A stretch of DNA of 64,000 nt from positions 62,001 through 126,000 of the forward strand of contig NZ_FNFC01000005.1 in assembly GCF_900100385.1 (NCBI RefSeq), given 5' to 3'. Below, piece by piece: positions 24,337 to 28,315 of the stretch (position 1 is the first letter of the stretch; every line of letters begins with the position of its first letter). Source of the DNA: Halovenus aranensis (GTDB lineage: Archaea; Halobacteriota; Halobacteria; Halobacteriales; Haloarculaceae). A program made the position numbers and the translations under genes. The notes under the pieces were generated by a model, which searched no databases, had not been told where the DNA came from, and saw only the letters and a list, made by a program, of their open reading frames with translations.

Positions 24337-24985
24337 CTGCAATCGTCTCCGTTTTGACTTGGGCCTCCGTCGGCGCCTGATTCGGTTCGCTGACCTGTGC
24401 TGTGGGTTTCTCGCCACGCGCCAGCGCGGCGTAGCCGGTCCGGGTGAGTTCGCGGATGCCGAACTGGCGGTAGGCGTCGATTGCCGCGTCGATGCGCTGT
24501 TCGTCGCCCGTGATTTCGACCGTAATCGAGCGCGGGCCGGCATCGAGCGTCTGGCCGTCGTACATCTCCGTGATGGCGTTGACCTGGTCGGGGCTGTCGC
24601 CGTCGACTTTCACGATGACCAGCTCGCGCTGAACGGCCTCCTCTAACTCCCGCACCGAGATGACCGGAATCCGCTTTGCGAGCTGTTTTTTCACTTGGTC
24701 GATGTTCGGACGGCTCTCCTCGACGACGATTGTCATTCTGGCGAGGCTGTCGTCGATTGTCTCCCCGACCGTCAGCGATTCGATGTTGTACTGTCGGCGG
24801 CTGAACAGACCCGACACCTCCGCGAGGACGCCGGGTTCGTGTTTGACCAGCGCCGACAGCACGGCTCGCCGGGGCTCGTGTGTCTGCCGGTCAACCCCCT
24901 CGACAGGAATCCCCTGGTCGGTTCGCTCGCCGTCTGGCGTCCGGCGCTTTTCGGGTGGCGCGCCGGGCAGTTCGCCGCGGCTCAT
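24329..24985 (-). CDS. ilvN: Acetolactate synthase small (regulatory) subunit
   Basis: 218 residues. An ACT domain begins near residue 38 ([20 protein letters not shown], then [12 protein letters not shown]), the valine-binding regulatory module, followed by the IlvN C-terminal domain ([10 protein letters not shown]). The N-terminal 35 residues are a charged extension. The ATG at 24985 overlaps the ilvB stop (ATGA). It should confer feedback inhibition on IlvB. Confidence 0.95.
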
Positions 24986-26778
24986 TCCAACCCCTCCAGT
25001 TGCTCGTCGTTCAACGCAAAGCGGGCGTTGTCGCCCCCGCTTGGCACCATCGGATAGACGTTCTCCTCGGGGTCGATGTGTGCGTCGACGACCGCCGGAC
25101 CGTCGTACTCGTGTGCCGCGGTGAGCGTCGCCTCGACATCCTCGGCCTCGTCGATGCGAAACCCGCGGGCACCGAATGCCTCGGCCAGCGTGTCGAACTC
25201 GGGGACCCAGCCGTACTCCGAGGCCATGTGTCGGCCCTCGAAGAAGCCGTCCTGCCACTGGCGGACCATCCCGATTGCCTCGTTGTTCAACACGACGACG
25301 GTGATATCGAGGTTCTCGCGGACCGCGACCGACAGCGACTGAATCGTCATCAACAGGGAGCCGTCGCCCTCGAAGCAGACGACTTCTGTCTCGGGCGCGG
25401 CGACCTTCGCACCGATTGCCGCGGGGAGGCCGTATCCCATCGTCCCCAGCCCGTGACTCGACACCCAGGTCCGGGGTTCGGTGTACTCCCAGAACAGGCA
25501 GGCCCACATCTGGTGTTGGCCAACGCCGGTCGTGACAATCGTCTCCTCGGGCGTCACCGCGTCGGCCGTCTCGACGACGTACTCCGGCTTGAGCGGGTCC
25601 GAGTCCGGCATCTCGTACTCGAGTGGGTACGTCTCGACCCACCGCTTGCAGGTCTCGTGCCACTCCGTGAGGTCGGGGCCCGTCGCTATCGCGTCGTCGA
25701 GCTGGTCGAGGACCCGTCTCGCGTCGCCGACCAGCGGGTAGTCCGCGAAGATGTTCTTGCTCATCTCCGCCGGGTCGATGTCGACGTGTGCGACCTCGGC
25801 CTCGGGGGCAAACGTCTCGACACCGCCGGTCAGCCGGTCGTCGAACCGCGTCCCCACGCCCAACAGGAAGTCGCAGTTCGCCAGCGCGAGGTTCGCGTAG
25901 CCGGTGCCGTGCATCCCGGCCATCCCCATCGACAGCGGGTCGTCCTCGGGGAACGACCCCAGACCGGGCATCGTCGTCACGACCGGAATCTCGTACTCGC
26001 GGGCGAAGCTCCTGAGCCGGTCACAGGCCTCGCCCTTGATGACGCCGCCGCCGGCGAGAATCACCGGCCGCTGTGTGGCTTCGAGCGCCTCCGTGGCTGC
26101 CCGGACGACGACCTCGTCTGCCTCGGTCGGCGGGCTGTAGGTGTCCGGCGTCTCGGGGCTGTCGGGTTCGCTCGTCGTCTCGGCGAGGGAGACGTCTTTG
26201 GGGAGGTCGACCAGTGTCGGCCCCTGACGGCCGTCGTTTGCCAGCGCCCAGGCCGTTCCGACGGCATCGCCGACGGTGTCGGGGTCCTGGGCGAAGCTGT
26301 TGTGTTTCGTAATCGGCTGTGTGACGCCGGTGGTATCTGTCTCCTGGAAGGCGTCACTGCCGACGAAATCGGTCGGGACCTGGCCCGTCAGCGCGAGTAC
26401 CGGGTCCGAGTCCATGCTCGCGTCGGCGAGGCCGGTGACGAGATTCGTCGCGCCCGGTCCCGAGGTGGCGAGACAGACGCCCGGCTCGCCGGTGACGATG
26501 CCGTAGGCGTCGGCCGCATGCGCCGCCCCCTGTTCGTGGGCCATCGTGACGTGGTTCAGTTCGTCGTGGTCGTAGAGGGCGTCGTAGACGGGCATGATTG
26601 CCCCGCCTTGCACCCCAAAGAGGTCGTCGACGCCGGCGGCTTCGAGTGCCGCCACGACCGCGTCCGCACCTGTTTCGACACCGTCGGATTCGGACGGTTC
26701 CGCTTGCGACGCGGATGTGTCCGATTCCGGAGGGTCGTGCTGTGCTGTCGGTGGTTGCTGCTGTGCTGTTCTGTCCAT
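24982..26778 (-). CDS. ilvB: Acetolactate synthase large (catalytic) subunit
   Basis: 598 residues. Thiamine-diphosphate and FAD enzyme condensing two pyruvates, or pyruvate and 2-oxobutyrate. The catalytic Glu is in MAHEQGAAHAADAYG; the ThDP/Mg motif is EGDGSLLMTIQSL with VVVLNNEAIGM. The first 35 residues are a Ser/Glu/Gln-rich extension. The ATG at 26778 lies 71 bases after the stop of a 25-codon leader ORF and has only a weak upstream GGATG, so translation may depend on the leader. Confidence 0.95.
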   Translation of the reverse strand: MDRTAQQQPPTAQHDPPESDTSASQAEPSESDGVETGADAVVAALEAAGVDDLFGVQGGAIMPVYDALYDHDELNHVTMAHEQGAAHAADAYGIVTGEPGVCLATSGPGATNLVTGLADASMDSDPVLALTGQVPTDFVGSDAFQETDTTGVTQPITKHNSFAQDPDTVGDAVGTAWALANDGRQGPTLVDLPKDVSLAETTSEPDSPETPDTYSPPTEADEVVVRAATEALEATQRPVILAGGGVIKGEACDRLRSFAREYEIPVVTTMPGLGSFPEDDPLSMGMAGMHGTGYANLALANCDFLLGVGTRFDDRLTGGVETFAPEAEVAHVDIDPAEMSKNIFADYPLVGDARRVLDQLDDAIATGPDLTEWHETCKRWVETYPLEYEMPDSDPLKPEYVVETADAVTPEETIVTTGVGQHQMWACLFWEYTEPRTWVSSHGLGTMGYGLPAAIGAKVAAPETEVVCFEGDGSLLMTIQSLSVAVRENLDITVVVLNNEAIGMVRQWQDGFFEGRHMASEYGWVPEFDTLAEAFGARGFRIDEAEDVEATLTAAHEYDGPAVVDAHIDPEENVYPMVPSGGDNARFALNDEQLEGLE

Positions 26779-26841
26779 TGATAGACATCCGTGACTGCTG
26801 GTCGATGGCGATGCGGTCGGGGTGACGAGAGGAGAAGTAGT

Positions 26842-26861
26842 GTAGGGGCTCAGGCCCCTAC
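26842..26861 (-). promoter_or_regulatory. Perfect hairpin overlapping the leader stop codon, upstream of ilvB
   Basis: GTAGGGGC (8 bases), a four-base loop and GCCCCTAC form a perfect stem. On the coding strand the loop reads CTGA and contains the TGA stop of the leader ORF. The following bases towards ilvB are pyrimidine-rich (about 15 of 21). It could be an attenuator or pause structure, or a site affecting ilvB translation. Confidence 0.6.
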
Positions 26862-26927
26862 AATAATGCCGAGGAAAGCGATGCCGCTGGCGGCGACAAA
26901 CGCCCGGGTGCCAGCGGTCAGTTGCAT
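26850..26927 (-). CDS. Leader peptide ORF upstream of ilvB (25 residues)
   Basis: An ATG at 26927 opens 25 codons ending with TGA at 26852-26850. Seven residues are Leu, Ile or Val, ending with FLGIIVGA; the run I21-I22-V23 uses ATT ATT GTA, codons unusual for this GC-rich genome. A TATATA box at 26953-26958 places the predicted transcription start within a few bases of this ATG, so the ORF should be first on a leaderless message. Its last codons enter the hairpin at 26842-26861. It could be a regulatory leader peptide or a tiny one-helix membrane protein; function is inferred only. Confidence 0.6.
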   Translation of the reverse strand: MQLTAGTRAFVAASGIAFLGIIVGA

Positions 26928-26952
26928 TACTACAACTCTCCTGTCGCCGTGG

Positions 26953-26958
26953 TATATA
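26953..26958 (-). promoter_or_regulatory. TATA box of the ilvB-leuB operon
   Basis: TATATA sits inside GTTATATACC on the coding strand, about 28 bases before the leader ATG at 26927, the spacing expected for a leaderless haloarchaeal promoter. Confidence 0.65.
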
Positions 26959-27076
26959 ACGCTTTCGGGGAGCCCGTGCCGAGTAGTCGCGTTGCTGGTC
27001 GTGGTGAGCGGACACAGCGTTGCGCTCAGACAGCAGCCCCACGGCGCTGTCGCTACTGCTCGGCCGGGACATCGGC

Positions 27077-28289
27077 CTAGACGCGAACCTCCTCGCGGCG
27101 GGCGATGCCGGCATCGCGGGCGAACTGTTCGAGGTCGGTAGCGGTGACGTGACCGGCAGAGACACCGCTTTCTTTGACCTTCTGTGTCACCGTGTGAACC
27201 TCCTCATCGGTGGGGTCGAAACCGACCTCTTCGAGCCGTTTGCGTACCGAGTGGGTCCCGGTGTGTTTGCCGAGGACGAACTCACGCTCTGCACCGACCA
27301 TTTCCGGCGTCATCACGCCGGGCTCGAACGTCTCGCTGTTTTCGATGACGCCAGCGGCGTGGATGCCGCTCTCGTGGGCGAAGGCGTTGTCGCCGACGAC
27401 TGGCTTGTTACCCGGTACCGGGACCGCCGAGCGCTGTTCGACGGTCCGTGAGATGTCAGCGATGCCTGTGGTGTCGATACCGGTGTCGACGTCGTACAGC
27501 GATTCGAGCCCCATGACGACCTCCTCGTATGCCGCGTTGCCCGCGCGCTCGCCGATGCCGTTGACCGAGACCTGGACCTGGTCTGCGCCGCCGCGAACGC
27601 CTGCGAGGGCGTTCGGCGTCGCCAGCCCGAAGTCGTCGTGGGTGTGGACATCTACCCGGGCGTCGCCGCTGTGTTCGACGATATCGGCGACGAGCTCGCC
27701 GAACCGCTCGGGCGTGGCAACGCCACAGGTGTCCGGGACGTTTATCCAGTCTGTGCCGGCGTCGGCGGCCGCCTCGACCATCTCGAACAGGAACGCCTCG
27801 TCGGTTCGAGTGGCGTCCATCGGCGAGAACATACACGTCGCGCCGGCCTCGACGACACGCCTGACGGACTGGACAGCACGTTGTTTCGCTTCTGTTCTGG
27901 TCGCGTGCATCGAGTCCTCGAGTTGTACGTCGCTGGTCGAGGCGAACACGTGGACCATGTCGACGCCGCTGTCGAGTGCCGCCTCGATGTCGTCGTCCAC
28001 CACGCGGGCGAGCCCACAGACCGTACTCGAACTGGCCGCGGCGATGTCACGGACCGCCTCGAACTCGTCGTCGCTGTTGACCGGGAATCCCGCCTCGATG
28101 ACGTGGGTTCCCATCTCGTCGAGTTGCGCCGCTATCTCGCGTTTGTCGTCGTACGAGAACGACGTCCGTGGCGTCTGCTCGCCGTCGCGCAGCGTGGTGT
28201 CGAAAATCCGTACCTGACCGTGGGAACTAGTTGTCCCCTGGAAGAACTCGATCCGCCGGGGTCGCCGACGTATCCTCGTTGTAAACCAT
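27077..28289 (-). CDS. leuA: 2-isopropylmalate synthase (LeuA/citramalate-synthase family), with apparent N-terminal frameshift
   Basis: Condenses acetyl-CoA with 2-oxoisovalerate, or pyruvate for citramalate. The body reads DTTLRDGEQTPRTSFSYDDK, then DVHTHDDFGLATPNALAG (metal-binding HxH) and GIHAAGVIENSETFEPG. At about 403 residues it lacks the C-terminal leucine-binding domain. The main frame has no ATG, GTG or TTG between its upstream stop and the active-site DTTLRDGE. The nearest promoter-supported ATG (28289, TATA at 28316) is in a different frame that stops after 20 codons. Joining MVYNEDTSATP to RIEFFQGTTSS needs loss of one base near the GGGG run at 28258-28261. This is a sequencing error, a mutation or recoding. 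Confidence 0.8.
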
Positions 28290-28315
28290 TTGCGTTCCTA
28301 TACCTATCGAGCAGG

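Follow-up and report, generated by a model that had tools for sequence, protein, structure and literature searches.

The locus described here lies in the window, that is, the whole 64,000-nt stretch of Halovenus aranensis DNA that was analyzed, and consists of a short open reading frame (ORF) on the minus strand that is preceded by a TATA-like box (TTATATACC) and followed by ilvB, the gene for the large subunit of acetolactate synthase (Table 1). The nearest homologs of this ilvB gene are those of Halovenus salina and H. rubra. The 32-nt distance between the box and the ATG is consistent with a leaderless start. The leader peptide, MQLTAGTRAFVAASGIAFLGIIVGA, has the C-terminus Ile-Ile-Val-Gly-Ala-stop, and the last codons of the ORF overlap a hairpin, denoted stem B; another hairpin, stem A, is located within the ORF. 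The pattern GTAGGGGCN{0,8}GCCCC occurs only once in the window, at this site (0.01 occurrences expected), and the pattern ATTGTAGGGGCN{2,8}GCCCC occurs once in the 3.29-Mb genome, which also has leaders upstream of valS, pheS, and trpS2.

An earlier, sequence-only reading of this stretch had described the TATA box, the 25-codon ORF, the hairpin whose loop includes the stop codon, and ilvB at a distance of 71 nt, all of which were confirmed. Two further claims held in part: the perfect hairpin, given as 8 bp, is actually one pair longer, and, among the seven Ile, Leu, or Val residues that had been counted in the peptide, conservation in relatives extends only to the final Ile-Val pair. The share of these three residues in the N-terminal part of the leader is ∼19%, which is not unusually rich.

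Table 1 Features of the ilvB leader locus in the window
Feature	Position	Strand	Remarks
TATA box TTATATA	26953..26959	minus	First T (26959) 32 nt upstream of leader ATG
Leader ORF, leaderless	26850..26927	minus	25 codons; ATG 26927, stop TGA 26852..26850
Stem A, within leader ORF	26884..26917	minus	CCGCTGGC...GCCAGCGG; arms 26917..26910 and 26891..26884
Proposed control codons	26859..26867	minus	ATT ATT GTA (Ile-Ile-Val)
Stem B hairpin	26841..26862	minus	TGTAGGGGC-CTGA-GCCCCTACA; 9 bp, TGA stop inside tetraloop
Pyrimidine-rich, G-free tract	26828..26843	minus	ACACTACTTCTCCTCT; directly after stem B
Spacer, leader stop to ilvB ATG	26779..26849	minus	71 nt; open in the leader's -1 frame, which is the ilvB frame
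ilvB, acetolactate synthase large subunit	24982..26778	minus	ATG 26778; proposed regulated gene

Conservation of the ilvB leader across Halobacteriales

The leader design is kept in about 170 of 176 ilvB upstream regions from approximately 60 genera of Halobacteriales. Of the 137 haloarchaeal ilvB upstream regions in a first set, only one lacked both the motif and any close variant of it; in an enlarged set, the standard leader is present in 166 of 171 regions, and variant leaders, all retaining GTA, were identified in four more (genomes G018, G032, G049, and G123). The motif is absent from five further regions, namely, four from families f9 and f11, where another gene is located directly upstream, and one from G058, which is poorly assembled and contains assembly gaps. 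One ilvB paralog in G050 truly lacks the leader. A strict form of the motif at first seemed to miss genomes, most of which, among those examined, have GTAGGGGT/ACCCC or looser variants. All these counts come from related species and do not represent independent events.

Leader lengths are widely variable among the ilvB loci. Among the 152 leaders with a good TATA box, 126 have the ATG 32 nt from the first T of that box. In an unbiased test, where the box was placed independently of the motif, the first ATG following the box shared the reading frame of the motif in 68 of 77 cases; in the remaining 9, an out-of-frame ATG comes first, mostly a few nucleotides before the in-frame one. One criterion for attenuation, a conserved start and stop of a short ORF upstream of the ilvB operon, is met. 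The sequence-only reading was to be abandoned if the start, the stop, and the Ile and Val codons proved not to be conserved in relatives. The alignment of haloarchaeal ilvB upstream regions that it had proposed was run, and all of these elements, along with the hairpin, are conserved across Halobacteriales.

Rare, proposed control codons at the end of the leader

The C-terminus, (I)VGA(x)-stop, is the sole conserved part of the ilvB leader peptides. The Val codon is GTA in all of the standard leaders (166/166), compared with 1.4% of the Val codons in the ilvB genes. It is preceded by ATT in 126 and by ATC in 35 of the 166 leaders, so that ATT accounts for 126 of 161 Ile codons at this position, against 10.4% of the Ile codons in ilvB genes; overall, the residue preceding Val can be I, F, L, M, or V. 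The GTA count is biased because the search pattern included GTA, yet only 1 of the 171 ilvB regions lacks a recognizable leader. Furthermore, 45 of 159 hairpins leave the A of GTA unpaired, yet this nucleotide is conserved there as well, indicating that pairing alone does not explain the GTA.

The hairpin and the tract that follows it

Stem B was found in every one of the 159 distinct sequences, and in 150 of these, the stop codon is in the terminal loop despite the variable loop size. The inner pairs of the stem show compensatory changes (C-G, U-A, and G-C), and GTAGGGGC and GCCCC are near-invariant at the nucleotide level. Conservation of a hairpin that overlaps the control codons is thus observed, and the dependence of its folding on the position of the ribosome is inferred. 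Stem A occupies the same place and shows compensatory changes within the same family, is weak across families, and has modest support overall (mean z of -1.1).

The nucleotides at +2 to +17 after stem B are pyrimidine rich, with a G content of 4.4% compared to 23 to 31% around this tract, and T reaches its maximum at +12 to +14 nt. A strong T run after stem B is not found: T5 is present in only 5 of 156 sequences, so a classical archaeal terminator is not evident. Since a stretch of T followed by C characterizes published Haloferax termination sites, 503 of which have hairpins no more than 10 nt upstream (PMC7237163), the G-free tract may represent a weak terminator of the attenuator type.

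No conserved partner for an alternative pairing of stem B could be identified, and a GGGG partner was not seen in the ilvB spacer. At trpS2, a 2:3 antiterminator pairing was considered and rejected given that it did not exceed shuffled sequences. Another criterion for attenuation, mutually exclusive terminator and antiterminator structures, is accordingly not met for either ilvB stem B or the trpS2 2:3 pairing. The Rfam covariance models yielded no match for the ilvB, valS, pheS, trpS2, or leuA leaders, and identity with a T-box or another Rfam regulatory RNA was rejected on these grounds.

Codon-matched leaders at other genes

The motif search in the genomes revealed a second locus, valS, encoding valyl-tRNA synthetase (upstream loci L184-L213 and L170-L174). 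Leaders with GTA GTA or a single GTA precede 22 of 30 valS genes, counting two forms together. One form (GTA GTA GGG GC..) places Val codons, encoded by GTA and often doubled, before the same type of hairpin, without a conserved Ile. The other, which is found at valS genes of a different type, is a 10-codon ORF, M-x5-V-V-R-x, with GTA GTA CGT and no evident hairpin. Separately, a stretch located between the leader and valS, TTTCGACGGATGTATTGT..CCGACCAG.ATTCA, is strongly conserved in families f6 and f7 (L187, L188, L191-L193, L196, and L201).

Leaders ending in GFGFFF(A) or a similar sequence, mostly of 25 to 29 codons, were detected upstream of pheS in 21 of 30 genomes (loci L214-L243), and leaders with W-R-W or a similar W-x-W upstream of trpS2 in 10 of 11 (loci L244-L254). 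The WRW of trpS2 sits in the loop of an 8- to 12-bp hairpin, the arms of which covary by compensation. The trpS1 paralog served as a control and has the leader in none of 19 cases; as further negative controls, ileS (n = 30), archaeal leuS (n = 17), hisG (n = 29), and trpB (n = 30) likewise showed no conserved leader. In Haloferax volcanii, differential RNA-seq has led to the listing of upstream ORFs at pheS (26 codons) and at a trpS (23 codons) (PMC4983044); the section of that report bearing on these ORFs contains no comment on amino acid sensing.

A further criterion for attenuation, the placement of codons specifying the amino acid that the gene makes or charges at a conserved position close to an RNA structure, is therefore met, with Ile-Val at ilvB, Val at valS, Phe at pheS, and Trp at trpS2. 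The peptides and structures differ, and the codons are always those of the gene's own amino acid, a combination that is difficult to account for unless tRNA charging is sensed in a codon-specific manner. This matching, in independent leaders, supports the attenuation reading and is the decisive result for codon sensing; the output step is not shown by it.

Proposed mechanism

The anatomy of the ilvB leader, its conservation, the rare-codon bias, and the existence of codon-matched leaders at valS, pheS, and trpS2 are shown. The likely interpretation is that the leader is an amino-acid-sensing, cis-acting attenuator that works through the ribosome translating it, and the conclusion drawn is one of codon-specific ribosome sensing in archaea. 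The original suggestion of attenuation is, in this respect, strongly supported; the mechanism itself, including translation of the leader, stalling, the direction of the effect, and the level of the output, remains inferred from purely comparative evidence, in the absence of expression, ribosome-profiling, or 3'-end data.

In the proposed sequence of events, transcription would start at or near the ATG, and leaderless initiation would immediately load a ribosome on the leader. The final sense codons of this leader, Ile (ATT) and the very rare Val codon (GTA), lie at the foot of the hairpin whose loop contains the stop codon. As long as charged tRNA-Ile and tRNA-Val are plentiful, the ribosome would reach the stop codon and leave, the hairpin would fold, and expression of the ilvB operon would be curtailed, most probably through premature termination within the pyrimidine-rich tract directly after the hairpin. 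Under a shortage of Ile or Val, the ribosome would stall on ATT or GTA and cover the 5' arm, so that the hairpin would stay open and the operon would be expressed. As known from ribosome footprints, a stalled ribosome covers ∼12 to 15 nt downstream of the A site; a ribosome stalled at the Ile or Val codon is thus predicted to cover the 5' arm of stem B.

The level of the output can only be inferred without expression data. Early transcription termination is the first choice because of the G-free tract, with the case for and against an output at the transcription level being roughly balanced; coupling-sensitive termination by FttA/aCPSF1, which has been proposed in archaea (PMC11616081), is a possible route. 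An output at the level of translation is favored by a second small ORF that ends in an ATGA overlap with ilvB, and it appears less probable than not. An effect on mRNA stability is unlikely. Several points count against the model. A ribosome at the stop codon would cover the hairpin as well, so the timing must favor release; ileS, the Ile counterpart of valS, has no leader; and the continuity of the -1 frame into the next ORF (see below) is not explained by attenuation.

Alternative explanations

Nascent-peptide arrest is an unlikely alternative, in which the C-terminal Ile-Val-Gly-Ala would stall the ribosome near the stop codon, perhaps by sensing a free branched-chain amino acid rather than uncharged tRNA. 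In its favor, conservation in the peptide is confined to (I)VGA(x)-stop, and the stop codon is at a near-fixed distance. Conversely, the same logic is found with unrelated peptides elsewhere (VVRx, GFGFFF, and WRW), the Gly and Ala of IVGA are dictated by the stem nucleotides GGGGC, and the residue preceding Val is variable.

Even less plausible, to the point of being very unlikely, is an RNA or DNA element that acts independently of translation, such as a protein-binding hairpin, a riboswitch, or an operator, with the ORF being incidental. The near-invariance of GTAGGGGC and GCCCC in nucleotides is compatible with such an element. However, the start position, the frame, and the stop in the loop are kept while the leader length and loop size vary, one valS form without an evident hairpin keeps GTA GTA in a 10-codon ORF, the codons match the amino acid of the gene, and there is no match to an Rfam family.

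Finally, the possibility that the ORF ahead of ilvB encodes a small functional protein with a single membrane helix, which had been the main alternative in the sequence-only reading, is not supported and is the least likely of the three: the peptide in the window does contain a hydrophobic stretch, but the N-termini of its relatives are unrelated and often polar or basic, the length varies, the differences among related leaders are spread evenly over the codon positions (583/526/544) without a third-position bias and thus give no sign of selection on the peptide, and the criterion for such a protein, a conserved hydrophobic helix with protein-level selection, is not met.

Relation to known attenuation systems

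Ribosome-mediated attenuation is a textbook bacterial mechanism, and the enterobacterial ilvGMEDA and leu leaders are attenuators of this kind. The ilvBNC leader of Corynebacterium glutamicum (PMC11857589) resembles the haloarchaeal one in that a short ORF carries codons for the end products, among them rare control codons, next to hairpins upstream of ilv genes. In contrast to the bacterial attenuators of branched-chain amino acid genes, the haloarchaeal leader has a leaderless start and, where the bacterial leaders contain long runs of control codons, only a few of them (Ile-Val); its stop codon is inside the hairpin loop, and it lacks a U-run intrinsic terminator and an established antiterminator pairing. 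Attenuators of pheST and trp are likewise known in bacteria (for an actinobacterial survey, see PMC1262725), where Phe codons in a leader before pheS and Trp codons in a leader hairpin provide the parallel; the haloarchaeal leaders differ from these in being leaderless and in having no evident terminator hairpin. T-box riboswitches also sense tRNA charging upstream of aminoacyl-tRNA synthetase and amino acid genes. Unlike the haloarchaeal leaders, which have no Rfam match, T-boxes bind tRNA directly and need no translation of a leader.

No description of amino acid attenuation in archaea was found in the open-license literature searched, in agreement with the earlier statement that no archaeal example was known. 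If the interpretation is correct, attenuation would occur at several genes throughout much of a single archaeal order, combined with leaderless starts and a hairpin of another design, and tight transcription-translation coupling would be in regulatory use in archaea. The leaders would also constitute a natural reporter set for codon-specific ribosome stalling in archaea, and the proposed mechanism can be tested directly in Haloferax or Halobacterium.

Reading-frame continuity downstream of the ilvB leader and the leuA start

A second small ORF was observed in 106 of 136 ilvB loci (among L001-L168), where it ends in an ATGA overlap with ilvB. It mostly starts 62 to 77 nt after the leader stop and encodes a peptide of ∼8 to 52 amino acids that is mostly basic and often includes ..RYR... 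ATGA-type overlaps are a coupling arrangement that has been described for archaea and bacteria (PMC6728339). A CCAGC/GACCAG element near the next start is conserved and only moderately enriched.

In 104 of 121 genomes, the leader is followed by a first ATG that lies in the -1 frame relative to it. Between the hairpin and this ATG, the -1 frame is devoid of stop codons in 120 of 121 genomes, compared with 79 to 80% for the other frames and 77% for shuffled sequences. The differences in the spacer by codon position (238/284/311) show that the third position is slightly more variable. This continuity resembles selection for reading through, but no recognizable slippery site was found in the ilvB leader. 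As a general mechanism, -1 frame continuity was rejected, being absent at valS, pheS, and trpS2. A bolder, and improbable, reading is that the ilvB leader is also a recoding switch that operates by -1 frameshifting under Ile or Val shortage. Ribosomes would leave the leader frame near GTA-GGG, bypass the stop codon of the hairpin loop, and then translate the spacer in the -1 frame, entering the second small ORF, whose stop overlaps the ilvB start, or, in the window, entering ilvB directly.

Another start-site puzzle concerns leuA. In the window, no ATG, GTG, or TTG precedes the conserved RIFDTTLRDGEQ region in the frame of leuA (28297..27077, minus strand). In a different frame, a leaderless ATG opens an ORF (28289..28227, minus strand) encoding MVYNEDTSATPADRVLPGDN, followed by a stop; LeuA could then be produced only through a +1 shift, for which GTT CTT C is a possible site. 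This arrangement (..RVL(P/R)GH..), with a leaderless ATG in a frame from which LeuA could be reached only by a +1 shift, recurs in nearly all of the 30 haloarchaea, very divergent ones included, and most of these genomes have no ATG, GTG, or TTG in the leuA frame. Pfeiffer and Dyall-Smith noted the start problem for leuA2 (HVO_1510) and proposed an out-of-frame ATG with ribosomal slippage, by which LeuA might be made only when leucine is lacking (PMC8305020). The leuA2 puzzle is similar to the present one in that it involves a neighboring gene in the same operon region as ilvB, and it differs in concerning leuA, not ilvB, and recoding, not attenuation. By inference from sequence alone, leuA is a stronger case for read-through than the -1 frame at ilvB. 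Should the recoding reading of the ilvB leader be true, then, together with the apparent +1 shift of leuA, it would mean that branched-chain amino acids are sensed by programmed frameshifting in haloarchaea. A haloarchaeal leuA-associated RNA motif has reportedly been published.
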